Shown here: in pieces, positions 845-22,023 of the stretch
Position numbering within the stretch: the first letter of the stretch is position 1
Layout of the letters: every line of letters starts with the position of its first letter
Virus record (IMG/VR): IMGVR_UViG_3300026094_000036
Span: 1 to 23,780 of that record
From: a virus
Length of the DNA: 23,780 bases
Reading direction: 5' to 3' (one strand)
The notes under the pieces: model-generated
Database searches by the model: none
What the model was told of the DNA's origin: nothing
What the model saw: the letters and a program-made list of their open reading frames with translations, nothing else
Translations under genes and position numbers: made by a program

Positions 845-852
845 ATGCTAAC

Positions 853-889
853 CGTGTGGGGTTTTTCTTACACGCACCCACACGTTTTT
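853..889 (+). terminator. Rho-independent-type terminator after the gp46-like gene
   Basis: An 8-bp perfect inverted repeat (CGTGTGGG at 853-860, CCCACACG at 877-884) with a 16-base loop is followed at once by five T residues (885-889). It lies between the stop of the recombination gene and the first fibre gene, so it would separate a replication/recombination transcript from the late structural block. The loop is long for an intrinsic terminator, so strength is uncertain. Confidence 0.6.
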
Positions 890-916
890 CAATATACCCA
901 CAAGAACAACTATATC

Positions 917-1882
917 ATGGCTCAAGTATTTGGAGTAGAACAGGATGAAATTGTCGCAGGTGACACTGTTAAAGCATCTCACATAAAAACGTTGTATGAT
1001 GTGCTTTCTGGGTCGGTCTCTCCAGATCCGGCGGAGTTCACCATAGATTCAGATGTAACAATTTCAAATGGCATTACAATTTCAAATGGCATTGATGTGT
1101 CTGGTGGCAATATCACTGCAACATCCTCAACGCTCACAGCCGGGGTCTATGAAGCCACATCTACTGATCCCAATGTGACCTTCGGAAATGATTTTAGAAC
1201 TGCTCTAAGTACATACATACAGTCTGAAGCCCCGTCTGCCGATACCTATGTGGATGGCGTATCCTTTGATTCTGGAACAGAAACCCTGACACTCACGCGA
1301 TTTGGAAGAAGTGATCTCACCACGACAATTGATGTAGGATCGGATGTAACCATAACCGGCGGTAGCAACATCAACGTTTCTCAATCCGGCGAAGATTTCA
1401 CGGTTTCAACAACATCCACCCTCACAAACATTACATCCATTGATAGTTCTGGAAATACATCATTTAGTATCACTGTATCAAACCCTTCTAATCCAACGTT
1501 GGTGCTGGCAAACGCTGACAGCATTCTTCGCTCAAATTTGTATGTTGACGGTGATATAGTTGCCACTGGCGATGTTGTTGCGATGGGGTCTCTTCCGAGT
1601 GATGTTTGTCTCAAGAAGAATCTGGTCCAAATAGAAGATGCACTTGGAAAAGTGAATGAAATGGGCGGTTACCATTTTGAATGGGATGAATCCAAAGTCA
1701 AGCACTATCATGGAAAGGATTATGGCGTTATTGCACAGGAAGTTCAAAAAGTAATGCCAGATGCAGTCAAAAAAAGAAGCGATGGATTTCTTGGTGTCAA
1801 TTACACAAGAATCATACCGCTTCTTATACAGGCAATCAAAGATCAACAGCAAGAAATCCAAGACCTCAAGAAGCTTCTTTAG
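917..1882 (+). CDS. Tail fibre/spike-like protein with C-terminal S74 intramolecular chaperone
   Basis: The protein has 321 residues from the ATG at 917. An in-frame ATG at 845 would add 24 residues translated through the terminator hairpin and is unlikely. The body is rich in Ser, Thr, Asn and Gly with beta-helix-like repeats, including a duplicated TISNGI. The last 94 residues match the Peptidase_S74 / endosialidase chaperone domain: SDVCLKKNL (Ser228 and the following Lys pair), then YHFEW, DYGVIAQEVQKVMPDAV, and VNYTRIIPLLIQAI followed by a C-terminal helix. In this family the domain trimerises the fibre and then releases itself by cleaving before the Ser, using the Ser and Lys residues. 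The usual SDIRLK(K/E)N motif has Cys in place of Arg here. It is probably a receptor-binding fibre. The leader before the start is CA-rich with no Shine-Dalgarno. Confidence 0.85.
   Translation: MAQVFGVEQDEIVAGDTVKASHIKTLYDVLSGSVSPDPAEFTIDSDVTISNGITISNGIDVSGGNITATSSTLTAGVYEATSTDPNVTFGNDFRTALSTYIQSEAPSADTYVDGVSFDSGTETLTLTRFGRSDLTTTIDVGSDVTITGGSNINVSQSGEDFTVSTTSTLTNITSIDSSGNTSFSITVSNPSNPTLVLANADSILRSNLYVDGDIVATGDVVAMGSLPSDVCLKKNLVQIEDALGKVNEMGGYHFEWDESKVKHYHGKDYGVIAQEVQKVMPDAVKKRSDGFLGVNYTRIIPLLIQAIKDQQQEIQDLKKLL
1058..1093 (+). repeat. Perfect 18-bp tandem duplication in the S74 fibre gene
   Basis: ACAATTTCAAATGGCATT occurs twice back to back (1058-1075 and 1076-1093), encoding TISNGI twice. 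Identity at the DNA level suggests a recent duplication in the fibre shaft. Confidence 0.9.
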
Positions 1883-1913
1883 AAGAACCCCTGTGTGTAC
1901 GCGTAATGACGAC

Positions 1914-1922
1914 TATATAACC
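1914..1922 (+). promoter_or_regulatory. Possible late promoter TATATAACC
   Basis: A TATATAA element 26 bases before the start at 1940, in a 57-base gap. It resembles the TATAAATA-type late promoter of T4-like phages and the TATATAATA elements in the head region of this window. No -35-like element was recognised. The gene behind it has a T-run and AAA directly before its ATG, with no Shine-Dalgarno. Confidence 0.35.
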
Positions 1923-1939
1923 CCCAATTTTTTTTTAAA

Positions 1940-2980
1940 ATGGCCTTTTCAATTTCAAACTTTCAAAATGAAACAAATGCAACCTCATTTGTTGAGGGTT
2001 CACAGAATGCGGCTCCTGGAACTCTTCCGGGACCGGTCATAACATCCCAGTACGTTGCCGAGTCAGCAACGGCTTCATTGAATCAGAATTACCTTTTACC
2101 AAGTGGAGACACCAAAATGGTAAATGGTTTCCCCGGTAGACCAGACCAAGTTGGTACAGAAATGGGAGGACCAACGCTGGTAGACATGGATTGGTCAACC
2201 ACAGTTTCGGCTGTGACGGACCGCTTAGAACCATCACAAAACACCCCATATTTACTTGGAAACCCCAATAATTACACAAATTTAACAGATAGTCTTGATA
2301 TTCTTGCGTTCAGCAACGGCATCAAGTCAATATCCACAGACAACTTTGGGGATATGAGAGGAAACTATGGAAATACTACTATTACCGGAGAATATCAAGA
2401 TTCCATTGGAAATTCATTTTCTCTCAATGAGCCAATTCAGGTGATTGGAATTGGGTCAGACCATAAGATCAATAGTTCAGAATTTGCCTCGGGATTTGGC
2501 AATAACCCGTATGTATTTAGTATGAATGTAGACTTTACCCTGCAAGTTTACACGGCAGGGCTGGGAACACCTGCAAACTTTGAAGTATCGGTAGAAGTGA
2601 CTGACAACTCACCCGGTCCAAATGCCAATAACGTGACTTCTTTTACGGATACAAACACTGGTCAATATTACACATATGATTCAAACACCCAAATTTTTGA
2701 ATATAGTAGACCATTGCCAGTGTCATATACATATGAAGGACTAACATTGCCAGATGGGGTAACTACTTTCACAACGTCCACTGATGTGCTATGGACTGTG
2801 GATGTTCCGAATAGCACAATTGGCAGTTTCACATTAAGCGGTGTATTGAAAAAAATCAACACAGTTGATTTGAGTCCCATTATCAATCCAGGTGGTCCGG
2901 GTAATCCAGGTGATCCGACTGATCCGGGTGATCCGACTGATCCGGGTGATCCGACTGATCCGCCTACCACTATCCGGTGA
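1940..2980 (+). CDS. Putative virion fibre/adhesin with Gly-Asp-Pro repeat tail
   Basis: The protein has 346 residues. I do not recognise a family. It is rich in Asn, Thr, Ser, Gly and aromatic residues and predicted by eye to be mostly beta. There is no signal peptide or membrane segment, as expected for a virion surface protein. The C-terminus (about 315-346) is a low-complexity Pro/Gly/Asp stretch built from the hexamer GDPTDP repeated three times, after GGPGNP. Such tails act as flexible or collagen-like linkers in phage fibres and decoration proteins. Its place between an S74 fibre and another fibre-like gene supports a role in the tail fibre or virion surface. Function is inferred from composition and context only. 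Confidence 0.6.
   Translation: MAFSISNFQNETNATSFVEGSQNAAPGTLPGPVITSQYVAESATASLNQNYLLPSGDTKMVNGFPGRPDQVGTEMGGPTLVDMDWSTTVSAVTDRLEPSQNTPYLLGNPNNYTNLTDSLDILAFSNGIKSISTDNFGDMRGNYGNTTITGEYQDSIGNSFSLNEPIQVIGIGSDHKINSSEFASGFGNNPYVFSMNVDFTLQVYTAGLGTPANFEVSVEVTDNSPGPNANNVTSFTDTNTGQYYTYDSNTQIFEYSRPLPVSYTYEGLTLPDGVTTFTTSTDVLWTVDVPNSTIGSFTLSGVLKKINTVDLSPIINPGGPGNPGDPTDPGDPTDPGDPTDPPTTIR
2909..2962 (+). repeat. Three perfect 18-bp tandem repeats encoding GDPTDP
   Basis: The unit GGTGATCCGACTGATCCG occurs three times without mismatch (2909-2926, 2927-2944, 2945-2962). The flanks (GGTGGTCCGGGTAATCCA before, CCGCCTACC after) look like diverged units. Slipped-strand copy-number change would lengthen or shorten the tail in frame. 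Confidence 0.95.
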
Positions 2981-3043
2981 CACTTGTGTATATGCTATTT
3001 TGCACACGCACATAAGGACATACAGAATAACACACCAAACGAA

Positions 3044-4378
3044 ATGGCTATTATACCCCAAATATCAGTTGTTAAACCAGATCAAGAAGTGCTGCGGTAC
3101 ACTGGCACAACGGTTGATGATATTAGAAATGCCGTTCAAGAAAATTCATCGGGTGGAGTTGTCCAAATTACAATCCAACAGGGCACATTTACAGGATCTT
3201 CGCCGGTAGAAATTCCTGTAAACGTTTATGTTGTGATTATGCCCGGTGCCAAATTTCAAGAGGATGTGACGGATCTCTTTGTGGATGCCACCAACCCGAC
3301 ATCTCCGTCCCCCAATGTTGCAGATTTCAATTCTCTGCGAACCGGAGGAAGTGGGAATGTTGTATTTACGGTTGAAACAGATGATACATTGGAACAAAAT
3401 ACAACATCCGGAAACATTGACCTTTCCGTGAAATTGTCCACGGACAAAAATTCATTGTTGCTTGATAGTAAAACGTCAGGAGACTTTGATAGGCTCACGG
3501 TGAATCCGCAAAATGTTGTTGCCCGAACGGATTCGGATTTAACCACCATTCCAATGAATAACAACAGCGTGCTTTCTAAAGCAACTGGCAACATTGAAAG
3601 CACACAATTTTCATCAAATTCCATTCTTGCCCGATTTGGAACGGACAACTTGTCAAACGTTCAAATCAGGGATAATAGCATTCTTGCTAAAATTCCCGGT
3701 AACCGGTTTGAAGATTCAGTGCTGTCTGAAAACACGTTATTGGCTCGTCTTCCGGGTTCGGACCTTGATCAGGTAGACCTTGACGATCAATCTTTGATTG
3801 ATGCCTTCAAACTTCAAGCAAGTGACATAGCAAGTGGCGAATTCAAAGACGCGGGGTCTGGAATATCGTATGAATTCAATTCAAATGTCAACGTTGACTT
3901 CAACTTGACGGTGTCCAACAAGACGTTTACCGATGTTATAGAGTCAACAGGTGAAAACGACATCAATGTCTTGTCTGGAGAATCAGTTATTATTCAGGGT
4001 GGAAGAGATTCATTTACGACAACGAATGGAACAATTTTTCTTGAAGGTCAGGTTGGAGAAGGTCCGATTTTTGAAGTGGGGAGAGAAGAAATTTTTGGTT
4101 ACCAAAACTGGGTTGAAATACGAGGATATGATCAATTTCGCATTATCACTGAAGATCCCACAGAAATTAGTGAAGGTGGCGTAGGTCAAGATATGTTCGT
4201 GATTCACAAGGAAGGGTATATTGATCTACCAATCAAGGACACAGTTCCCCGAAACCCGCCGGAAGGATACATTCGCTTTTATGCTCGTTCTGACAATTTG
4301 GGCAACCCCACCTATGATGATGGGCGCGTCATATTCGTCACAAGCGGCGGTGAGCGCACAGAGGTTGATCCCTCGTAA
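3044..4378 (+). CDS. Putative tail fibre protein with 19-residue repeats
   Basis: The protein has 444 residues from the ATG at 3044, after an A/C-rich leader; an upstream in-frame ATG at 2984 overlaps that leader and is less likely. The N-terminal ~90 residues resemble a small beta domain (IRNAVQENSSGG, then ITIQQGTF, as in beta-helix or pectate-lyase-like segments). Residues 157-248 hold five copies of a degenerate 17-19-residue repeat of the form N-S-hydrophobic-L-A-K/R-x-x-G, typical of fibre shafts. The C-terminal part is Gly/Asn/Thr-rich and ends in IRFYARSDN, then DDGRVIFVTSGGE, a strand pattern often found at the end of phage structural proteins. I infer a virion fibre or spike; no enzyme motif was seen. 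Confidence 0.65.
   Translation: MAIIPQISVVKPDQEVLRYTGTTVDDIRNAVQENSSGGVVQITIQQGTFTGSSPVEIPVNVYVVIMPGAKFQEDVTDLFVDATNPTSPSPNVADFNSLRTGGSGNVVFTVETDDTLEQNTTSGNIDLSVKLSTDKNSLLLDSKTSGDFDRLTVNPQNVVARTDSDLTTIPMNNNSVLSKATGNIESTQFSSNSILARFGTDNLSNVQIRDNSILAKIPGNRFEDSVLSENTLLARLPGSDLDQVDLDDQSLIDAFKLQASDIASGEFKDAGSGISYEFNSNVNVDFNLTVSNKTFTDVIESTGENDINVLSGESVIIQGGRDSFTTTNGTIFLEGQVGEGPIFEVGREEIFGYQNWVEIRGYDQFRIITEDPTEISEGGVGQDMFVIHKEGYIDLPIKDTVPRNPPEGYIRFYARSDNLGNPTYDDGRVIFVTSGGERTEVDPS
3512..3787 (+). repeat. Five degenerate 17-19-residue repeats in the fibre gene
   Basis: The protein repeats begin NVVARTDSD, NSVLSKATG, NSILARFGT, NSILAKIPG and NTLLARLPG and are 17, 18, 19, 19 and 19 residues long. They are diverged at the DNA level, so they are old and not likely to expand by slippage. 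Confidence 0.8.
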
Positions 4379-4412
4379 AGCACGGATGGAACACGCACAC
4401 AAAACCAAACAC

Positions 4413-6191
4413 ATGCCCCCAGTTTATATGCCAAAAATTAAAAAGACCCGTCAGAAACGAAATCTTGCAGATACCGAAACGTTCATCACAGATGAGAGCG
4501 AAAACAGTCCACAGTATTTCAACATATCTCAACTCAATCAAGAGCTGTCTCTCGGTAAAAATGGGTTCGCTGTTCAGGGATCAGAAAACCTTAGAGCGGG
4601 CGCGGAAATTGCAATAGAGGTTGTTGATAGTGTGGGTGACGTGATTTATCATGAAGTGAGAAATTATAAAGAGGATGCGAAAAGAATTGTTGGGATTTTT
4701 GTGTATCAAGACACAGCACCGGGACCAGCAACCATCACAGTCCTGTCAGAAGCGATACGTGATGCAAATGGGGTCCCTGTTCCCCCCAACCAAAGAAACC
4801 GCTTTAACGTGAAATGGACGCGCTCGGTAAACGTGAATCCCAACAAATTCAACGATGACCAGATTCGCTTCATACGAGAACCTGAACTCATTTTGAGCGA
4901 TGAAGTTTACACCAAAAAGCAAGGCAAGTTTGCATCGGAGTCTGCGTCATTAGAGCGGATTGGGGATCCGGATTTCACCCCCATTGAAATTCAAGAACAA
5001 GGTGAAGATTTTTCAAGTTTTCCTCTTTACACTTTATCTCAAGGGACCCCACGAGTTAGTGGCACGGTGTATCCAACCAAACAGTGGCCCTATGATTACT
5101 TTATGATCAAAGCCGGTTCGTTTGATTGGATTGATGGCAACATGGACGATGAAACGTTGATCATATCCAAGGATGCACTTCCCTTGAACCGGAACATGAC
5201 AGTGCGATTGACTGAAATTGTGAATGAGCGATATGCTCGGTTTGAAATCGTCACCGAAGAATACAGGGATTATCTCAAAAAATTCAGCTTTGATACCGAA
5301 ACTTTTTTTCTACTGTATAGGAGAGACCCCTTTGCGTATGAGCAGAAAGAGACTGCGTACTACAAAAACATTCAAATTGGTTTCATGCAGACATTGACAG
5401 GAGAATGCATCCGGGCACAGGTGTATAACCGCTTGCGCAATGAACGTTCTTCGTTTGAATTTGTTGGAAACTTTGAAATTGAACCTGTTGAGTTGTTGAC
5501 CGACATTGAAGATCAGAGAACCGAACTTGTGAGTCCTGTTGGGGTGATTGATTCTCAATCCCATATTGATCGGTTCTTCACTTCAGATTCAAATTGTAAC
5601 TTGAACTTCAACAATGATTTTCTTGCAAAGAGTGTGCAGATCCAACCCAATGCCACGGGATTAGCTGAAGGAACGTATCAGGCAAGTATAGATTTCCAAA
5701 ACCCCGATATTCAAAGGTTTACGTTCTTTTCATACTCGGAATACACGGTATCATTTCAAGCAGCTTTTAATTCCGAAACGCCCATTGATAGCACACTTGA
5801 GGTTTTTTTAACCGGGTCTCCATTTTTTGATCGGATGGTCAAGATTGGCGATGTTGATCTGAATCAAGAAACGTACCACATAACAACAGTTAGTGAAAAC
5901 TTCGTCCCTGACCAGACAGCAGAAAGTTTCCAGTCCGACAGTACAGCAACCAGCTTTGAGATCATTTTTAAGGTCAATTCTCCACAAACCGATGTTTCTC
6001 ATGAATGGTACGTCCGAGACATAAGTCTGCAACCCGCCCAAGAAGCCGGGTTCAGCCCAGACTACAGTATACTCCGTGTGCCCATAGACACCACTAAATA
6101 CGGTTCAAACGAGCTATCGGATTTAGAGTATAAAGTTGATCTGTTTGACATCAATGGCAACAAAGCTGGTGTGAACATTGTGTCAGGATGA
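4413..6191 (+). CDS. Large virion structural protein, family not recognised
   Basis: The protein has 592 residues from the ATG at 4413, which follows a CA/A-rich leader like those of neighbouring genes. In-frame ATGs at 4386 and 4428 are alternatives. The N-terminus is basic (MPKIKKTRQKRN). A stretch at about 55-125 with AGAEIAIEVVDSVGDVIY and alternating hydrophobics looks like an Ig-like or carbohydrate-binding beta sandwich. The middle is rich in aromatic and acidic residues (FDWIDGNMDDE, YRDYLKKFSFD). The last 150 residues again look like a beta sandwich (YTVSFQAAFNSETPIDSTLEVFLTGS). No signal peptide or membrane segment. Following two fibre genes, it is probably a tail or fibre-associated protein. 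Its last 9 bases overlap, tail to tail, the 3' end of the minus-strand gene at 6183-6362. Confidence 0.55.
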   Translation: MPPVYMPKIKKTRQKRNLADTETFITDESENSPQYFNISQLNQELSLGKNGFAVQGSENLRAGAEIAIEVVDSVGDVIYHEVRNYKEDAKRIVGIFVYQDTAPGPATITVLSEAIRDANGVPVPPNQRNRFNVKWTRSVNVNPNKFNDDQIRFIREPELILSDEVYTKKQGKFASESASLERIGDPDFTPIEIQEQGEDFSSFPLYTLSQGTPRVSGTVYPTKQWPYDYFMIKAGSFDWIDGNMDDETLIISKDALPLNRNMTVRLTEIVNERYARFEIVTEEYRDYLKKFSFDTETFFLLYRRDPFAYEQKETAYYKNIQIGFMQTLTGECIRAQVYNRLRNERSSFEFVGNFEIEPVELLTDIEDQRTELVSPVGVIDSQSHIDRFFTSDSNCNLNFNNDFLAKSVQIQPNATGLAEGTYQASIDFQNPDIQRFTFFSYSEYTVSFQAAFNSETPIDSTLEVFLTGSPFFDRMVKIGDVDLNQETYHITTVSENFVPDQTAESFQSDSTATSFEIIFKVNSPQTDVSHEWYVRDISLQPAQEAGFSPDYSILRVPIDTTKYGSNELSDLEYKVDLFDINGNKAGVNIVSG

Positions 6192-6362
6192 AAATCCGGA
6201 AGACTTTAGGTTCTCCATTATTTCAAGCCTTTTCTTTTCTGTGTATGACCCCCATTTGATCAAATGGGTGCGTGTTCTGCCACATGAAGAACAGATGTTT
6301 TTGTTGGGGTCAAATTGGCATTCCTTGGTGCAAGGACTTGAAGGGTTGGTGGTATTTTTCAT
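6183..6362 (-). CDS. DUF1289-like small cysteine protein, encoded antisense
   Basis: The minus-strand frame from the ATG at 6362-6360 to a TGA at 6185-6183 gives 59 residues. The pattern SPCTKECQFD, then ICSSCGRT, then IKWGSYTEKKRLEIMENL matches DUF1289, whose members read SPC-x3-C, C-x2-CGRT, W-x-x-(M/Y)-x-x-x-E-(K/R)-x-x-I-(M/L). The four Cys (11, 15, 24, 27 by count) suggest metal binding; the biochemical function of the family is not established. It is the only convincing minus-strand gene in the window and overlaps the 3' end of the preceding + strand gene by 9 bases. Its leader (about 6363-6385) is A/T-rich without a Shine-Dalgarno, like other genes here. The + strand reading through the same DNA lacks any recognisable domain. 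Confidence 0.8.
   Translation of the reverse strand: MKNTTNPSSPCTKECQFDPNKNICSSCGRTRTHLIKWGSYTEKKRLEIMENLKSSGFSS
6251..6268. repeat. 18-bp perfect palindrome
   Basis: CCCATTTGATCAAATGGG is its own reverse complement over 18 bases, with a central TGATCA. It lies inside the DUF1289-like gene, where it encodes part of THLIKWG. It may be a coding coincidence or an operator-like site. Confidence 0.9.
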
Positions 6363-6437
6363 GGTGATATTGTTATATTATTGTGTGAATGATATTCCGT
6401 GTATCTATACAAAACAAGGACACGGCGTGTTTCAAAT

Positions 6438-7916
6438 ATGCAGCACTCATTTTCCAACTTCTCTAAACATCAAATGAATCTTAAACAGAACATTGACAAA
6501 ATCGGTTCCTTCTTGGCTGAAAAATACCTTTTGGAAATAAAGCGTGAAAACATGCCCCAAGTTAATTCGGACATGACACAGGATATTTTGACCGTTTTCA
6601 AAGAAAATGGGGTTCTTGTGACACGTGAAAAGGTGGAATGTGATTCATTGCATCCCACACAGGAAAATTATTCTTCAGAGAAAGTTGATGATATAGTTGA
6701 AAAACTCAAAGCAAACAAAACGTGTCTGCCTTTGTTTGTAAGTGAGGATTATCATATACTGGATGGGCACCATCGTTGGTTGGGAGGAAAGAAGATTCAA
6801 GACAACTCAAATGGAAAGGTTGTTAAACTTCCAATCATCCGGATTCAGCTTCCCAAAAACAAAGCACTCGTGCAACTCATTGATGCGTGCAACAAAGTGG
6901 ATGAAGAAACGGATTCATTGAAACACGCGGTTATTTACCCTGGCTCATTTCCACCTTTTCACAAAGGAGATTACAGTGAGTATTGCAAACTTAAAGATCG
7001 GTTTGGTTCAAACAACGTGTATATCGTAGCATCAAACAAAACATCACCACGTCAGCCTCTCACATTCAGTGACAAGCAAGAGGTGATCACCAAAATGTAT
7101 CCCATACCAAAAAGTATGGTATGTGAGGTTGAAAATGTGTACAACCCAGTAGAGATTTTTGATGATCTTGATGTGTCAAATACGGTGGTCGTGTTGGCCT
7201 TGACCGAAACCCAGATTTCTAAACTTGAAGAAAACGACAACCTGAAAAGATCGTTCAAGGAATATAAATTTGTTGATCTGGAAACGTTTGATTCGGGGAC
7301 GTGTTATTACCACCAAGTAACCCCACAGGATCATGTGTCTGTTTTCTTGTCGGGAGAAGATGGAATTTCGTTGGATCGCTCACACATCATTGAAGCGTTT
7401 GCGAATAAACAGTTGTCTGATGCATCCAAGAAAACGCTGTTCAAAGAAATCTTTGATGGGTGGAATCAGGATATTTTTGAAATTCTGGTTGAGAAATTCA
7501 ATGTGTCCAATGTTTTGGGCGGCAAAATGATCCAAGACATGATTAATGCAGGGATCGTTGATATCAAGGAGTGTCAACAAGTGGTTCTTGGTAAATTCCA
7601 ATCTTTGTTTGAGTCAACCCAAACTCAGGCAGTTGGAGCGGATGATGGACCCGCAACATGGTGGGAAACGCAAGATGAATTTCAGAAACAGAATGCCAAA
7701 CTTGCAGAACGAATGGGGTTTGAAGTGATTGATCAGATTGGAACAAAAACACCCGACTCCCTTAAAACGGATGTACTCCCATACGCAAGTTTTTATCCGA
7801 TTGGAAACAATAGCCAGTCTCCAGTCCAGAATCCGGACAGCGTGTATTATCCATATGTCCGTTCTCTTGCTCGCATGTTAGGCTTTCAAATTATTGATTA
7901 TCTACATGACAAATGA
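6438..7916 (+). CDS. ParB-like domain fused to HIGH-type nucleotidyltransferase domain (variant active site)
   Basis: The protein has 492 residues from the ATG at 6438; in-frame ATGs at 6399 and 6474 are alternatives and I cannot decide between 6438 and 6474. Residues about 55-140 form a ParB/Srx-like domain, with DYHILDGHHRWLGGKKI around 104-120 (the DGHHRW signature). Residues about 163-330 look like a cytidylyltransferase/NMNAT-type Rossmann domain starting VIYPGSFPPFHKGDY. The canonical HxGH is HKGD here, so the last active-site His is replaced by Asp and activity is doubtful. ISLDRSHI may stand in for the ISxTxxR motif. The C-terminus has a twice-repeated element (LAERMGFEVID and LARMLGFQIID). 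The stop overlaps the next start as ATGA, so the two products are probably translationally coupled and may act together. Confidence 0.75.
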   Translation: MQHSFSNFSKHQMNLKQNIDKIGSFLAEKYLLEIKRENMPQVNSDMTQDILTVFKENGVLVTREKVECDSLHPTQENYSSEKVDDIVEKLKANKTCLPLFVSEDYHILDGHHRWLGGKKIQDNSNGKVVKLPIIRIQLPKNKALVQLIDACNKVDEETDSLKHAVIYPGSFPPFHKGDYSEYCKLKDRFGSNNVYIVASNKTSPRQPLTFSDKQEVITKMYPIPKSMVCEVENVYNPVEIFDDLDVSNTVVVLALTETQISKLEENDNLKRSFKEYKFVDLETFDSGTCYYHQVTPQDHVSVFLSGEDGISLDRSHIIEAFANKQLSDASKKTLFKEIFDGWNQDIFEILVEKFNVSNVLGGKMIQDMINAGIVDIKECQQVVLGKFQSLFESTQTQAVGADDGPATWWETQDEFQKQNAKLAERMGFEVIDQIGTKTPDSLKTDVLPYASFYPIGNNSQSPVQNPDSVYYPYVRSLARMLGFQIIDYLHDK

Positions 7917-9733
7917 AAAATACGGTTATATCATACCCCGGAAGATTTCAACCATTTCACAATGGGCACTATCAGGTTTGTGAACACTTGAAGACCATGT
8001 TTCCGGATGGAAATTTGGTCATGACCCTGTCTAATGTCGTTGAGTTCCCCCGTAGCCCGTTTTCATATCAACTTAGAGAAAAACTGATCAAGTCTGCAAT
8101 TCCGGGCGCTCGTGTTGTATCAGCGTCCAATGTGTATGCTCCGGATGTGCATGGCATATCAGAATCAGATGATGCGTTATATGTTGTGGCCGTTAGTGAG
8201 AAAGACCCTGAGCGGTATCAGCGATTGATTCAAGGTTCATACTTTTTGCCATATCATCCGGATGATATGGAACTTTTGCCTGCATGTCGGCATGGGTATG
8301 TCGTTCGTGTCCCTACATATGGCAACAACGAAGATTCAACGTGTCCATTGAATGCAACACAACTTCGGGCAAAATTGATGTCCAGTCAAGGTGCATGGCG
8401 CGAGTTTGTTGATGAAATGCCATGTGACAATAGTATCAAGCTATACAACCAAATGATTGCTGAATTGGCAATGCGTCAAGATTCTTGCTATTCCGTGTGT
8501 GATCACAATGTTAATGATGGAACCGTTGCATCGGGACACATCATGCATCCTTATGAAGACCATCAGATATCGTTTTGTGATATTGTAGACATGTTTCACA
8601 GCGTTGTATCTGACGACAGGAAGATGCGGTTACAGGAAAAGGTTGATGGGCAAAATATCAAGGTTACACGAAATTGCGATGGAGAAGTCAGGTTTGCGTG
8701 TAATTTGACCCATCGCAAAAATGGTGCCAAGAATGCCATGTCGCGTGATGACGTCATTGAACGATATTCAAAGTACCAAGATCCCAATGTCCTTGAGACA
8801 TTCAAAAACGCGTTTGATGCGTTTGAACTTTTCATGGAAGATTTTTCTTATATTGGCATGAAACAAGGAACGCGTTTTTGGAATGCAGAGATTGTAAACC
8901 CCGATAATAAAAATGTCGTAAAATACCATGATAAATACATCGTCTTGCATGGTCTAATGGGCTGTGATCAAGACGGTCGTGAAGTCAATTACTTCTCTTA
9001 TGATCCCGGTATGTATGGCTGTTATAACGGATTCAACTTTGTTGGTCCAATAGAAGTAGGCTTACATTCTGAAGCTTTGCTATTCTTCAAAGAATCAACA
9101 ATGTCCCTCAACAATTTTTTTGCTAATTTCACAGTACCCGACGCGGCAAACGGAATTTCGTTTCTTGAAGCATTGAATGTATTAGATGATAACAAAAATG
9201 ATGATGTGCCGATCCATCACCACATCCGTGAAGAGTTTTTGAATGAAATCGCACAATTTGCTTCTTCAAATCAGCACGTTCTTTCAATGGAACAAGCGAT
9301 TGGACTTACACAACGATTTGCATATAACCAAAAATCAGGTGTCACGGGATGTAATTTGCGAAAAATGCGAAGCATGTTTGATGATGATGCATTTCTTGAA
9401 AAATGCATCTCTCGGTTTCAAAACGGATTTGATTCCAAGTATGTCAACAAAGTTCGTCATTTTGTTGAACACATTGGGACTGCTATCAAAAAGCGTGTTT
9501 TCAATACGCTAAATGACGGTACAGATACAACAGGGATTGATGTATCCGAGATAGAAAAAATGAACCGTGTCGTTTCTAAGCGTGGGCACGATGATATGTG
9601 CGTGCATGTTGGCAATGACATTCCGAAATTTGAAGGGATTGTTTTTACATACAACGATAAAACGTACAAAATCACCGGTATGTTTAGGCGTATTAACTAT
9701 TTATTGGGATGTATTAAATATGGGCGGATTTGA
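7913..9733 (+). CDS. Bifunctional nucleotidyltransferase (HNGH) + RNA-ligase-like protein
   Basis: The protein has 606 residues. Residues 1-165 are an intact HIGH-superfamily nucleotidyltransferase: YPGRFQPFHNGHY at the N-terminus and NATQLRAKL near 147-155 as the ISxTxxR-like motif, as in NMN adenylyltransferases and cytidylyltransferases. From about 215 the fold changes to a covalent nucleotidyltransferase (DNA/RNA ligase-like) domain: motif I EKVDGQN with candidate nucleotidyl-Lys243, FWNAEIVNP as a motif III-like element, EGIVF (motif IV) and YKITG (motif V) near the C-terminus. Both active sites look complete. From family knowledge, the first domain would join a nucleotide to a phosphorylated substrate and the second would seal or adenylylate nucleic-acid ends via a lysyl-AMP intermediate; the actual substrates are unknown. 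It starts within the upstream stop codon (ATGA overlap), as in a two-enzyme operon. A role in RNA repair or NAD metabolism during infection is inference. Confidence 0.8.
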   Translation: MKNTVISYPGRFQPFHNGHYQVCEHLKTMFPDGNLVMTLSNVVEFPRSPFSYQLREKLIKSAIPGARVVSASNVYAPDVHGISESDDALYVVAVSEKDPERYQRLIQGSYFLPYHPDDMELLPACRHGYVVRVPTYGNNEDSTCPLNATQLRAKLMSSQGAWREFVDEMPCDNSIKLYNQMIAELAMRQDSCYSVCDHNVNDGTVASGHIMHPYEDHQISFCDIVDMFHSVVSDDRKMRLQEKVDGQNIKVTRNCDGEVRFACNLTHRKNGAKNAMSRDDVIERYSKYQDPNVLETFKNAFDAFELFMEDFSYIGMKQGTRFWNAEIVNPDNKNVVKYHDKYIVLHGLMGCDQDGREVNYFSYDPGMYGCYNGFNFVGPIEVGLHSEALLFFKESTMSLNNFFANFTVPDAANGISFLEALNVLDDNKNDDVPIHHHIREEFLNEIAQFASSNQHVLSMEQAIGLTQRFAYNQKSGVTGCNLRKMRSMFDDDAFLEKCISRFQNGFDSKYVNKVRHFVEHIGTAIKKRVFNTLNDGTDTTGIDVSEIEKMNRVVSKRGHDDMCVHVGNDIPKFEGIVFTYNDKTYKITGMFRRINYLLGCIKYGRI

Positions 9734-12067: not shown

Positions 12068-12112
<45 letters not shown>

Positions 12113-12114
12113 TC

Positions 12115-12483
12115 ATGACGAAAGAACAAAAATTCAGAGCACTGATACGAGAAATGGTGCGAAATGAAATGCGGTCTAACAACTCCAAATCCCGTCTTGA
12201 CGAAGGGATTGGTGGGTTTGTTGGCCTATCTCCGATCAATTCCATGCCGTCCCATTCTAACCGCGACAACTTTTCGTTTAACGGGGTTTCAAGTATTGGC
12301 GCTCAACAAAAAGCAGCGGAAGAATCAAACATGGAACTAACCGAGCAAGCCCTGTCGGGTTCCAAAGTGGCGTCGGCATACTGCAATGATGATCAAACGT
12401 CATTCACGCTTGAAATTGAAGACGGTCCTCTCATTGAAATTCAAAGTGCGGGGGATCGTCTTAAAATCATCAAAATAGATTGA
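12115..12483 (+). CDS. Small head-region protein with IREMVR N-terminal tag
   Basis: The protein has 122 residues. The N-terminus (FRALIREMVRNEMRS) is an amphipathic basic helix containing Ile-Arg-Glu, closely matching the start of the protein at 22396 (VRKLIREMVRREL). A Gly/Ser-rich linker includes NFSFNGVSSIG, echoed in the next gene as NFDFRGVDSIG. The C-terminal ~45 residues (TSFTLEIEDGPLIEIQSAGD) look like a small beta domain. No known family. By the tag, it may be an internal head protein cut by the encoded prohead protease. Its start follows the CA-repeat leader, and its product ends 5 bases before the next ATG. Confidence 0.6.
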   Translation: MTKEQKFRALIREMVRNEMRSNNSKSRLDEGIGGFVGLSPINSMPSHSNRDNFSFNGVSSIGAQQKAAEESNMELTEQALSGSKVASAYCNDDQTSFTLEIEDGPLIEIQSAGDRLKIIKID

Positions 12484-12895: not shown

Positions 12896-14551
12896 ATGTC
12901 AACAAATCAACGCCAAGAAATTCAGAAGGCGCAACGGCAAGAATATTTGAAATGCGCAATGGATCCAGCGTATTTCATGAAGAAGTATTGCAAGATTCAG
13001 CACCAACAGAAAGGCAAGGTAAAATTCAATCTATATCCGTTTCAAGAACGAACTCTTGAAGAAATTCAAGAGAACCAGTATAATGTGATTTTGAAAGCCC
13101 GTCAAATGGGCATTTCCACGTTGATGGCAGCATATGCTCTTTGGCTCATGACATTCAATAGCGACAAGAACATTCTTGTCGTTGCACTCAAACAGGCAGT
13201 TGCACGCAACCTTCTCAAGAAGACCAAAATCATGCACGCAAACCTTCCAGGGTTCTTGCGTCTCAAACGTGAGGTGGACAATCGTCTTTCCATTATGTTT
13301 GAAAATGAAAGTCAGATGTCTGCCGAAACAACCACCGGCAACGCCGGGCGGTCCGAAGCACTTTCACTTCTTATCATTGATGAAGCAGCTTTCATCAAAA
13401 ATGCACGCGAACTGTGGTCAAGCATTCAAGCAACTCTTTCTGCGTCCGAGGGGGACGCAGTTGTTCTTAGCACACCTTCTAACATCGGAACGTGGTTTCA
13501 TGAAACGTGGAGCAATGCTGTTTCTGGGGCTGATTTGGTAGATTCCACCGAAAATAAAGAGATTTGGAGTGGTGTCGGAGAAAATGACTTTCACCCCATC
13601 AAGTTGCATTGGTCCTTGCATCCAGACCGAGATGCGGCATGGAGACGTGAACAAGACAACAAGTTGCCTGCAAGCAAGGCAGCACGAGAATATGACACGT
13701 CATTTGAAAGCAGTGGTGACACTGTCATTGGAATGGAGCGCATTCGTTCCATTGAAAAATCGCAAGTAACCAACCCCCAATACAAAATTCCGGTTTTCAA
13801 CCAACGAGATTTTTGGGTGTGGCAAGAACCGCAACCCAACACGTCATATGTTGTGAGTTCAGATGTTGCGCGGGGGGATGGCGATGGCGATTATTCAACA
13901 ATTCAAATCTTCACAACCGATGAAATTGAACAAGTTGCTGAATATCGGGGGCATGTTCGCCCTGACCAACTTGGAAATCTTCTTGTCCGATTCGGGACCA
14001 TGTATAATGATGCGTTAATTGTCGTTGAACGCAATAGCTACGGTTACAGCACGCTCCGAACGATCATGGACCGCGATTACAAGAATTTGTTATACACGTC
14101 TAATGATCTTCACATCATTGACACCAAGGGCGGTAAAAGAAACAACAAGAAGGTGCTTCCCGGCCTTTACACAAGCCGGAAAACCCGTCCACTCATTGTT
14201 TCTAAGTTTGAAGAGTATATAAGGAAAGAATATGCCACTATTAGGAGTAGCAGGCTTTGTGAAGAACTCAAAACATTTGTATGGAAAAAGAACGGAAAAG
14301 CGGAGCATGTAAGCGGGTATCACGACGATCTTATTTTTGCTGCGATGTTCATGTTTTGGGCACGAGATACTGCAATCCGATTGCGAGGAGACGCTGAACG
14401 GCAAAGCCATTCAGCGATGAGAAACATTCAATCAAAAAAAGGTTCCAATTTCAGAAGGAATGCCGGTGGGTTGTATACACCTGGATCCGCCAAAGGCAAT
14501 CCGTGGCGAGACCAAAATACAGGGCAAGATTTGGGATGGTTGTTGGGTTGA
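12896..14551 (+). CDS. Terminase large subunit (T4 gp17 type)
   Basis: The protein has 551 residues, a normal length for the family, and is the DNA-packaging motor that docks on the portal. The N-terminal ATPase contains Walker A-like KARQMGIST (67-75; same variant class as T4 gp17), Walker B LLIIDEAAF (158-166) and coupling motif LSTPSN (191-196). The C-terminal RNase H-fold headful nuclease has acidic residues in SSDVARGDGDGD (Asp323), LIVVERNSYG (Glu378) and GYHDDLIFAA (Asp477/478). A basic, Gly/Asn-rich tail follows (about 500-551). The start at 12896 lies 8 bases after the previous stop. Both catalytic sites look intact, so the enzyme should be functional. Confidence 0.95.
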   Translation: MSTNQRQEIQKAQRQEYLKCAMDPAYFMKKYCKIQHQQKGKVKFNLYPFQERTLEEIQENQYNVILKARQMGISTLMAAYALWLMTFNSDKNILVVALKQAVARNLLKKTKIMHANLPGFLRLKREVDNRLSIMFENESQMSAETTTGNAGRSEALSLLIIDEAAFIKNARELWSSIQATLSASEGDAVVLSTPSNIGTWFHETWSNAVSGADLVDSTENKEIWSGVGENDFHPIKLHWSLHPDRDAAWRREQDNKLPASKAAREYDTSFESSGDTVIGMERIRSIEKSQVTNPQYKIPVFNQRDFWVWQEPQPNTSYVVSSDVARGDGDGDYSTIQIFTTDEIEQVAEYRGHVRPDQLGNLLVRFGTMYNDALIVVERNSYGYSTLRTIMDRDYKNLLYTSNDLHIIDTKGGKRNNKKVLPGLYTSRKTRPLIVSKFEEYIRKEYATIRSSRLCEELKTFVWKKNGKAEHVSGYHDDLIFAAMFMFWARDTAIRLRGDAERQSHSAMRNIQSKKGSNFRRNAGGLYTPGSAKGNPWRDQNTGQDLGWLLG

Positions 14552-16122: not shown

Positions 16123-18489
16123 ATGCCAGTCAAAAGCAATGCAGAAAAGAGCGGTACGATTCGGCAGGCTTTGAACAAGCTGTTTGGAAGTGAAGTTATT
16201 GTTCGTTCCTCGTCTGGAGGCCAAATCAAGACCGTGGATGTGCGTCAATCTCAAGCTGTGACGCGGTCGTTTCATCACGATAAATACAGACGCATGTATC
16301 AGTCTGGAATGAGTTCATACGCACCCCAGACGGCTGATAAGTACGGGTTTCATGCGAACCGAGTTTCATTATTCCAAACGTATGAAGAAATGGATGAAGA
16401 TCCCATCATTTCTTCTGCACTTGACATTTATGCAAATGAGGCAGCAACCAAAGATGCATTTGGTGAGATTGTTGACGTGGAATGCGAGAATGGCGAGATC
16501 AAGAGTGTTCTTGAAAACTTGATTTACGACATTTTGCATGTTCAAGACAATGCGCGTTGGTGGGCACGCAGTGTTGCAAAGTATGGTGATCTTTTCATGA
16601 AACTTGAAGTGTATCAAGATCACGGTGTTGTCAATGTCCAACCATTGAGTCCATACAACATCCAGCGATATACAGATCCCGATACAGGTCGCACACAGTT
16701 TTCATATGAAGAAGCGGGACATTCTACCCCCAACCAGTCGGACATTACATTTGAAGAATGGGAAATTGCCCATTTCCGATTCACAAACGACAGCAATTTC
16801 TTTCCATACGGAAAGGCTCTCATTGAAAATGGTCGTATGATATGGCAACAGTTGACCCTTATGGAAGAAGCCATGTTGATCCATCGCATCATGCGAGCGC
16901 CTGAAAAGCGTGTATTCAAAATTGACATTGGAAACATTGAACCGGATGCCGTGGATTCGTACATGAAAGGCATCATCAATGATATTCAGCAGACGCCTCT
17001 CATGGACCAACAGACCGGTCAATATAACCTTGAGTTCAATATGCGCAACATGCTTGAGGATTTTTTCTTGCCTGTTAGAGGGCGTGAGAACGGCACAGAG
17101 ATCAATAGTTTGCAGGGTCTTCAGTATCAGGTTATTGAAGACGTGGAGTACCTTCGCAAAAAGCTGATGTCTGCACTCAAGGTCCCAAACGCATTTCTTG
17201 GATATGAGAATGAGATACAGGGAAAATGTATTGACCCAAAGACAGAGATTCCGTTGATTGGCGGTGAAACAGTCACCGCCGAAGAAATTATTGATCACTA
17301 CAACAATGATGACGGAGATTCAGAGCCTCTTTACACATACTCTTATGATGAAGAGTCTGGTGAAATGGTTGCCGGAGAAATTGAGGCAGCAGAAATGACG
17401 CGGCGCAATGCTGAAGTTGTTGAAGTTGAGTTGGATAATGATGAAACCATTGTAACAACACCAGATCACAAATTCATGACGCGTGACGGTGATTGGATTG
17501 AGGCTCAAAATTTGGAGCCTGGACAACCACTCATGCCTCTTCAGAACGCCATTCAATCTACACATAAAAATCATGAGGTTGTGTCCGTTACAAAGCTGGA
17601 AGGCAGAATTGACACGTGTGACATTCAAGTAAAGAAGTACCACAACTTTGCAGTGTCGGCGGGTGTGATCATTCATAATTCAACTTTGGCCCAAGAAAGC
17701 ATCAAATTTGCCAATGCAGTTCGTAACTTGCAAGAATCTCTTGCACAGGAACTCAAAAAGATTGCATTGGTGCATCTTTATACCAAGGGGTATAAAAATC
17801 AGGATCTCGTTGGATTCAACTTCAAATTCACAAACCCGTCTATTGTTGCAGAGCAGGAGCGAATTGAATTTTTGAGCCGGAAGGCGGGCGTGGCACGTGA
17901 TTTGAGAGAATTGCCTATACACTCCGATAAGTGGATTGCAAAGAACATTTTCAACATGTCCGAAGAAGAGTACGAAGAGCAGCTTCGGGAGAAAGTGCGA
18001 GATTGGAAGCGCAATTTCCGCAAAGAACAGATTGAGCGAGAAGGAAATGATCCTGTCAAGACAGGTCAGAGTTATGGAACACCCGGAGACCTTGCAGCAT
18101 CCGGCAATGTCAATCTCAAAAACATTGACATGGACGATCTTGCCAAAAAAGGTGAAGACGGTGATAAAGGGGATAACAAGCCAAAAGGAGAATTTGATAG
18201 TGTCACAAAACAAGATGACGACAAATACGGACTCAAAGACATGTCCAACTTGCTTCGTCCAAAATCAAGCGATCTCAAACAAAATTTCCAGGGGGGCAGC
18301 CCTTTGGCTCTTGATTCGGTAGCCCCAAACCACAAAAAGAATCTGATTCAAGAATCTTTGAAACAAGAAATCATGAATGAGCAGTCCCGACAAGATCAAG
18401 AATGGGAGATCCCTGATGATAGTTTCATGAACGAAAATATCATTGATTCATTCCCCGATCCAAATGATGCAATGGAAATCCTTGAATGA
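16123..18489 (+). CDS. Portal vertex protein (T4 gp20 type) containing an in-frame mini-intein
   Basis: The protein has 788 residues as translated, 637 after removal of the 151-residue intein (369-519). The portal is the dodecameric ring at the head vertex through which the terminase pumps DNA. Matches to the gp20 family include SYAPQTADKYGFHANR, DEDPIISSALDIYANEA, RIMRAPEKRVFKIDIGN, MLEDFFLPVRGRENGTEI, EDVEYLRKKLMSALKVP and, after the intein, TLAQESIKFANAVRNLQ, then LKKIALVHLYTKGY. The intein splits the conserved GK-(S/A)-TLAQE segment. The C-terminal ~130 residues are an acidic, disordered tail containing LIQE and IMNE, possible prohead-protease sites. A TATAAAAAC element precedes the gene, and a terminator follows at 18497-18527. 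Confidence 0.95.
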   Translation: MPVKSNAEKSGTIRQALNKLFGSEVIVRSSSGGQIKTVDVRQSQAVTRSFHHDKYRRMYQSGMSSYAPQTADKYGFHANRVSLFQTYEEMDEDPIISSALDIYANEAATKDAFGEIVDVECENGEIKSVLENLIYDILHVQDNARWWARSVAKYGDLFMKLEVYQDHGVVNVQPLSPYNIQRYTDPDTGRTQFSYEEAGHSTPNQSDITFEEWEIAHFRFTNDSNFFPYGKALIENGRMIWQQLTLMEEAMLIHRIMRAPEKRVFKIDIGNIEPDAVDSYMKGIINDIQQTPLMDQQTGQYNLEFNMRNMLEDFFLPVRGRENGTEINSLQGLQYQVIEDVEYLRKKLMSALKVPNAFLGYENEIQGKCIDPKTEIPLIGGETVTAEEIIDHYNNDDGDSEPLYTYSYDEESGEMVAGEIEAAEMTRRNAEVVEVELDNDETIVTTPDHKFMTRDGDWIEAQNLEPGQPLMPLQNAIQSTHKNHEVVSVTKLEGRIDTCDIQVKKYHNFAVSAGVIIHNSTLAQESIKFANAVRNLQESLAQELKKIALVHLYTKGYKNQDLVGFNFKFTNPSIVAEQERIEFLSRKAGVARDLRELPIHSDKWIAKNIFNMSEEEYEEQLREKVRDWKRNFRKEQIEREGNDPVKTGQSYGTPGDLAASGNVNLKNIDMDDLAKKGEDGDKGDNKPKGEFDSVTKQDDDKYGLKDMSNLLRPKSSDLKQNFQGGSPLALDSVAPNHKKNLIQESLKQEIMNEQSRQDQEWEIPDDSFMNENIIDSFPDPNDAMEILE
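17227..17679 (+). other. Mini-intein (HINT domain, no homing endonuclease) in the portal gene
   Basis: The 151-residue insert begins with Cys1 (CIDPKTEIPL, block A), has block B at TTPDHKFMTRDG (Thr78, His81), block F at CDIQVKKYHNF and block G VIIHN, ending His150-Asn151 followed by extein Ser+1. All residues for standard class 1 protein splicing are present. Length and content leave no room for a LAGLIDADG or HNH endonuclease. The flanking exteins join as ...NEIQGK-STLAQE..., restoring the gp20-family sequence. The linker between blocks A and B is acidic. Confidence 0.92.
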
Positions 18490-21180: not shown

Positions 21181-21381
21181 AGCCACACTCACAACACATT
21201 CGCAATGGATATAATAGTCTTTTTGAAAGATACCGAAATCAACTCATGGAGTCAATGATCAACGACTTGAACGGAGTCAAGTTTGCATACATTTTTGAAT
21301 TTGAGGTCAAAAATGGAGAGTTGTTTCTTTCTACATGTCCAATGAGGTAACGACACGCTACATGGACATTTGATGAATTCA

Positions 21382-21389
21382 TATAAATC
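21382..21389 (+). promoter_or_regulatory. Possible late promoter TATAAATC before the protease gene
   Basis: TATAAATC differs from the T4 late consensus TATAAATA at one base and ends 7 bases before the ATG at 21397. That is very close for a promoter; it would give a transcript with almost no leader, so this call is weak. Confidence 0.25.
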
Positions 21390-21396
21390 ACACAAC

Positions 21397-22023
21397 ATGC
21401 CAAAACAAAAAGCTGACATTGTAGACGTGATCCCCTTTCAATACGAAAGGGTTCCAATTCAAGAGTCTTCCGGAAATGCCCAACTCACGGTGAAAGGAGT
21501 TTTGCAACGGGCAAACGCCAAAAACCAAAATGGTCGCATTTACCCAAAGAAAATTCTCAAGCGAGAAGTTGAAAAGTACAAGAAGGAAAAGGTCAACGAG
21601 CGTTTGAGTTTGGGGGAACTTGACCACCCGGACGATTCCACCGTCAATCTCAAAAACGTGTCTCATATCATCACAGATATATGGTGGCGAGGAAACGATG
21701 TGATGGGGAAAGTGGAGATCCTCCCAACTCCAAATGGGAATATCTTGAAAAGCCTGATTGAAGCCAATGTGAATGTTGGCATTTCCAGTCGTGGGATGGG
21801 CAGTGTTCAAAGCACGGGCGGTGACACAGTCAGAGTTGGCAATGACTTTGACTTGATTGCATGGGATTTCGTATCCAACCCTTCAACTCACGGAGCATTC
21901 ATGGAACAACTTAACGAATCCTTCAACTCTCAACGAATTATCACTCCGTGGAACCGGGTTACTTCATTTGCAGGTGAAATCATTGGAGAAATGAGTGACG
22001 AATACCATGATCCGACTGATTGA
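21397..22023 (+). CDS. Prohead core protease (T4 gp21 type, S77-like)
   Basis: The protein has 208 residues from the ATG at 21397 (the in-frame ATG at 21370 is less likely). It matches the gp21 head-maturation protease family: VKGVLQRANAKNQNGRIYPK at the start, catalytic His77 in LGELDHPDD, and the nucleophile Ser in VGISSRGMGS (Ser130/131), then FDLIAWDFVSNPSTHGA. In T4 this enzyme acts inside the prohead, cutting scaffold, capsid and internal proteins after (Ile/Leu)-x-Glu, and then itself. Here PIQE-S near residue 20 and QLNE-S near 190 are possible self-cleavage sites. It lies downstream of the portal, as in T4. Its end overlaps the next gene by 17 bases. Confidence 0.9.
   Translation: MPKQKADIVDVIPFQYERVPIQESSGNAQLTVKGVLQRANAKNQNGRIYPKKILKREVEKYKKEKVNERLSLGELDHPDDSTVNLKNVSHIITDIWWRGNDVMGKVEILPTPNGNILKSLIEANVNVGISSRGMGSVQSTGGDTVRVGNDFDLIAWDFVSNPSTHGAFMEQLNESFNSQRIITPWNRVTSFAGEIIGEMSDEYHDPTD

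Follow-up and report, generated by a model that had tools for sequence, protein, structure and literature searches.

The window analyzed here, a 23,780-base viral record from IMG/VR, contains a portal gene whose product is interrupted by 151 residues, which raises the question of what this insert is, whether it stays in the mature portal, and where it came from. We consider it highly probable that the insert, placed at the tunnel-loop site of a gp20-type portal, is a class 1 mini-intein, that it is spliced out to leave a portal of 637 aa, and that it comes from a portal-dedicated lineage of the HNH type, with the endonuclease since lost. The features concerned are collected in Table 1.

Table 1. 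Features of the portal locus in the window, and portal inteins with Pro1 on other contigs (the slash marks the insertion point)
Feature	Position	Strand	Remarks
Large terminase subunit (context)	12896..14551	+	No intein found in the gene
Portal protein gene, gp20 type	16123..18489	+	788-aa precursor, ATG start; Portal_T4, phrog_213, T4 gp20 structures
N-extein	16123..17226	+	368 aa; C-terminal end ...FLGYENEIQGK
Mini-intein, predicted class 1	17227..17679	+	151 aa, residues 369-519; Cys1, TPDH, block F Asp/His, His150-Asn151
N-terminal splicing block	17227..17541	+	Intein residues 1-105
Junction	17542..17568	+	Only ~9 residues here; same-site alleles have an HNH-type insert there
C-terminal splicing block	17569..17679	+	Last residues VIIHN
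C-extein	17680..18486	+	269 aa; +1 Ser, then TLAQE; begins the helix after the tunnel loop
Prohead protease (context)	21370..22023	+	
Pro1/DVYC inteins at portal site WIRNM/CKYGD	L342 aa 154; L224 aa 776; L264 aa 514; L110 aa 162; L105 aa 82		
Further Pro1/DVYC portal intein	L117 aa 674		

The host gene codes for a portal of the T4 gp20 type, as the 788-aa ORF matches Portal_T4 (2.2e-61, Pfam profile search) and phrog_213 (3.2e-59), finds T4 gp20 chains among solved structures, and has the terminase and prohead protease genes close by. A second contig (L001) is identical to the window across 10,364 bases. Placing the intein in the portal ring by means of an AlphaFold model of the full precursor was dropped, since that model was weak (mean pLDDT of 60.6). 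The motif ACACATATA, found a single time in the window, ahead of the portal gene, is no more frequent than chance predicts.

The insert, with junctions EIQGK/CIDPKT and VIIHN/STLAQE, has the sequence hallmarks of an intein. Residues 369-519 match the Pfam Intein_splicing profile at 1.3e-15 (58 bits against a cut-off of 35.8) and TIGR01445 (intein_Nterm) at 2e-11, while the match of the mini-intein to TIGR01443 (intein_Cterm) is marginal. Position 1 is Cys, the class 1 nucleophile; block B reads T78-P-D-H81 and is kept in the same-site alleles; Asp132 and His139 form block F when aligned with a DnaE intein; and the C terminus is H150-N151 followed by a +1 Ser, all in frame within a conserved protein that has uninterrupted homologs. 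Class 3 inteins lack the N-terminal nucleophile and have Cys at F:4 (PMC4031507), whereas here Cys1 is present and the F:4 position is, by alignment, Asp132. The AlphaFold2 model of the intein is a confident HINT fold (pLDDT of 89.6, pTM of 0.85), with the DnaB, NrdJ-1, and NpuDnaE inteins as best PDB matches (TM of 0.76 to 0.79). The profile E values, the confident model matching solved inteins, and the uninterrupted homologs at the identical point together argue that the insert is not due to chance. No nuclease match was found in it and the HNH-type insert of the same-site alleles is absent, making it a mini-intein without a homing endonuclease of its own. Its GC content is close to that of the exteins (43.5%, compared with 44.2 and 42.8%). 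An antisense ORF across it (positions 17320 to 17676), considered as a hidden HNH gene by comparison with PMC11855218, gave no Pfam match. Judged by its sequence, then, the segment is a class 1 mini-intein for which splicing is predicted. The original prediction of a 151-residue HINT intein with Cys1, TxxH, block F, and His-Asn/Ser+1, lacking an endonuclease, is thus borne out by profiles, model, and alignment.

Uninterrupted alleles of the site, for which the original prediction proposed a search, do exist: the insertion point reads through as GK-ATLA in portal relatives from IMG/VR and in named phages that infect Microcystis, Flavobacterium, and Rhodothermus. The same comparison amends the prediction in one respect, as a conserved segment is indeed split, but its Ser is not part of the conservation; relatives read GK-A-TLA rather than GK-STLAQE, and the Ser is the +1 residue that accompanies the intein. 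Of 93 portals without an insert, 89 have Ala and 2 have Ser directly after the cut, whereas all 12 distinct intein alleles have Ser (Fisher, 5e-14). Where inteins lie 2 or 3 residues earlier, Ser sits there instead and Ala is restored at the window's position in nearly all. As Ser is found at each intein's own +1 position and mostly Ala in the empty portals, the +1 Ser accompanies the insert, as splicing chemistry demands. On T4 gp20 the cut falls at about G393/T394, inside the tunnel loop (residues 374 to 398), which acts as a DNA valve in the T4 portal (PMC4493910).

The 14 alleles found at this same site comprise 12 of 375 to 463 aa and two mini forms, namely the window intein (151 aa) and that of L226 (143 aa). 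Three of the large same-site alleles were scanned and gave HNH_3 matches, of which only that of L102 passes the Pfam cut-off, those of L016 and L112 falling short of it. The closest relative of the window intein is that of L102, with which it shares 64% identity in the splicing blocks and groups at 100/99 in a 52-row tree; the L102 intein has 375 aa and the HNH insert missing from the window intein. Since this closest allele bears HNH, the window intein most likely lost its endonuclease, by parsimony of loss over gain, and that it is a remnant of a mobile form, in line with the domesticated remnant originally suggested, is likely. The window extein, in turn, is nearer to that of the intein-less L004 (73% identity) than to that of L102 (58%), which, set beside the splicing-block identity, fits lateral arrival followed by loss, as far as pairwise identities go. 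Loss has a parallel in the 143-aa form of L226 against the 384-aa form of L243, whose exteins are 97.4% identical, so loss can be recent. The splicing blocks of these two inteins are only 87% identical and the whole endonuclease region differs, so the difference between them could be a replacement and not a simple deletion. Across all portal sites there are 12 mini and 54 large forms, with 11 changes of state on the tree.

Excision of residues 369-519 would open with an N-S shift at Cys369, followed by transfer to Ser520 and by cyclization of Asn519 aided by His518; an O-N shift would then yield the portal with an uninterrupted GK-STLAQE. The precursor minus the insert comes to 637 aa, the spliced length originally predicted. 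As for its origin, an intein lineage dedicated to portals and carrying an HNH-type endonuclease inside it would have homed into this point, bringing the +1 Ser, and the endonuclease would later have been lost from the copy in the window phage. We propose that the endonuclease-less copy stays in place because it can hardly be deleted with precision from a loop that is both conserved and essential. The sequence, predicted fold, site, alleles, and relatives are observations, as is the absence of an endonuclease; splicing, homing, and a need for splicing before DNA passage are what we infer. The T4 portal channel is 28 to 44 Å wide (PMC4493910) and an unspliced subunit would put a folded domain in a channel of that size, which should keep DNA from passing through rings that contain unspliced subunits. 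T4 portals lacking residues 377 to 388 still form rings, with an increased share of 11-mers (about 28%), and are unable to complete packaging (PMC4493910). Given that the insert lies in a flexible, channel-facing loop and that these tunnel-loop-deleted portals still form rings, a block on DNA passage would, if splicing failed, be no less likely than a ring that does not assemble, and probably the likelier outcome.

Loss of the endonuclease need not mean immobility, as the HNH endonuclease of a co-infecting phage, encoded in a same-site allele, might cut empty portals and allow the mini-intein to be copied in by recombination. Related phages do have such alleles, and mini-inteins make up 2 of the 14 at the site, but no endonuclease gene was recognized in the 23.8 kb of the window, which is part of the genome, and nothing points to transfer of the mini form itself; we regard mobility in trans as unlikely. 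Somewhat less likely again is the idea that splicing is conditional and serves as a checkpoint, the inactive portal splicing only on some cue and so timing portal assembly (as the original prediction had it) or DNA packaging. The position in the DNA-contacting tunnel loop would suit such a role, as would the 12 folded inserts that would presumably not fit a channel of 28 to 44 Å (PMC4493910), and other inteins are known to splice conditionally (PMC6195587). However, no regulatory feature or sign of regulated splicing was seen, 77 of 79 near relatives have an uninterrupted tunnel loop and manage without the insert, and sporadic presence suits a parasite better than a control device.

That the segment is a splicing-dead HINT remnant, kept as a structural insert in the mature portal, seems very improbable, as the catalytic positions are all intact, the frame is open, the site is that of the DNA valve, and the +1 Ser has been kept where intein-less relatives have Ala. 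We give hardly any credence to a bacterial intein-like or pretoxin HINT domain; there is a weak PT-HINT match (28.3 bits against a cut-off of 27.7), but Intein_splicing scores far higher (58 bits), the +1 nucleophile is present, and the domain lies inside a conserved protein with uninterrupted homologs. The reading that we retain is that of a mini-intein which would splice and whose lineage is dedicated to portals.

The hosts of its relatives point to such a dedication. Two intein searches of IMG/VR, together with LR756508, gave 105 viral loci holding the intein N-terminal block (a count over contigs, including possible duplicates), and 102 of them are in gp20-type portals. The original remark that portals are less usual hosts therefore fails for this intein group, and portal inteins had been reported before (PMC5050341). 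Relatives in cellular genomes have flanks resembling GyrB, GyrA, and RtcB, names that were read from flank motifs, plus one portal (L147). Portal inteins stand apart from cellular ones at 98/94 in the 52-row tree, while in a wider tree of 104 rows a few of them fall outside the main portal group. Presence is nonetheless sporadic, since among the 79 portals nearest to the window's, 77 have an uninterrupted tunnel-loop motif; the other two carry related inteins, both at other sites. These 79 were found with a segment that avoids the insertion site, a first portal search having been biased to contiguous genes.

Insert positions cluster at 318 to 322, 333 to 336, and 365 to 373 (window extein numbering), which map to the inner clip, channel, and tunnel loops of T4, respectively, the three loops said to contact DNA (PMC4493910). 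Thirteen of 23 intein sites fall in these loops, a binomial enrichment that is indicative only, as independence of the sites does not hold, a tunnel-loop query produced the sample, the placement of a few of the 23 is approximate, and the limits of the loops were chosen manually (with 11 residues taken as the inner clip loop). A single clade of tunnel-loop inteins is compatible with the data (p-AU of 0.69), yet just 18% of the bootstrap trees contain it. One group with moderate support (86/80) brings together inteins inserted at 366, 367, 369, and 373, the pattern expected if the insertion point drifts, although the insertions may also have been independent. It is possible, although we hold this only tentatively, that an intein lineage specialized in gp20 portals colonized all three DNA-contacting loops and that its tunnel-loop point shifted between as many as six positions over a span of nine residues (365, 366, 367, 369, 372, and 373, window extein numbering), always with Ser at +1, a case of insertion-site drift in which splicing would necessarily precede genome packaging.

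Several known systems come close to this one. The PORT inteins of cluster C1 mycobacteriophages (six examples in Table 1 of PMC5050341, where the portal appears as POG1190) are likewise listed inside a phage portal. The inteins of L102 and of the huge phage LR756508 (L016) share the window's insertion point and have homologous splicing blocks (64% and ~48%, respectively), but that of LR756508 is larger (458 aa), bears an HNH-type insert that stays under the Pfam cut-off, and has Lys-Asn rather than His-Asn at its end; two further inteins lie in the same portal. The closest solved sequence relative is the NrdJ-1 intein (8ubs, 1.2e-8), with a HINT splicing domain in both, and the best NCBIfam match is the RtcB-type intein model NF052663 (6e-27); the hosts of these are ribonucleotide reductase and RtcB-type proteins, not portals. 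The MCM inteins of Haloarchaea resemble portal inteins in occupying several neighboring sites per gene, two of them lining a DNA channel, and one changes the +1 residue to Ser, as in the portal; MCM, however, is a cellular helicase with four sites, which are not adjacent positions clustered in one loop (PMC10643990). Terminase inteins have been proposed as packaging controls (PMC7156551). Our literature search, with most subscription journals outside its reach, found no description of inteins in gp20-type portals or of their concentration in the DNA-contacting loops.

As an intein, that of the window is ordinary; it is interesting as an entry to a portal-dedicated lineage. Repeated parasitism of an essential, structural, dodecameric phage protein at its DNA-gripping loops turns a single curiosity into a system, and with empty, endonuclease-bearing, and endonuclease-less alleles at one point, one can test directly the homing cycle, +1 co-conversion, drift of the insertion site, and how costly an unspliced portal is. 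It is also a warning that a portal gene from an environmental phage can easily be mistaken for a fused or broken one.

Some of the portals recovered are heavily loaded. L118 has a 1,907-aa portal ORF with at least four inteins (848-6568), and the 484-kb uncultured phage LR756508.1 has, at 539-2320 and 2402-6562, three inteins in its portal gene and one of the LAGLIDADG type in the adjacent upstream gene. L147 encodes a gp20-type portal with a tunnel-loop intein (2615-5632) on a 211-kb contig binned as a Woesearchaeota MAG; the contig would be phage DNA binned in error or else come from an archaeal virus. Several portal inteins start with Pro1 in place of Cys1 and, like class 3 inteins, have Cys in block F (DVYC; Table 1), and those of L103 and L130 at the same WIRNM/CKYGD site combine Cys1 with Cys in block F; going by their residues, these may represent natural steps leading from class 1 to class 3.

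Elsewhere in the window, two adjoining genes with nucleotidyltransferase-like domains lie at 6399-9733. The EKVDGQN-bearing part of the second gave no Pfam or PDB match; the motif itself recalls RNA ligases. A run of CA repeats at about 12085-12110 directly precedes, on the 5' side, the start codon of an ORF at 12115.
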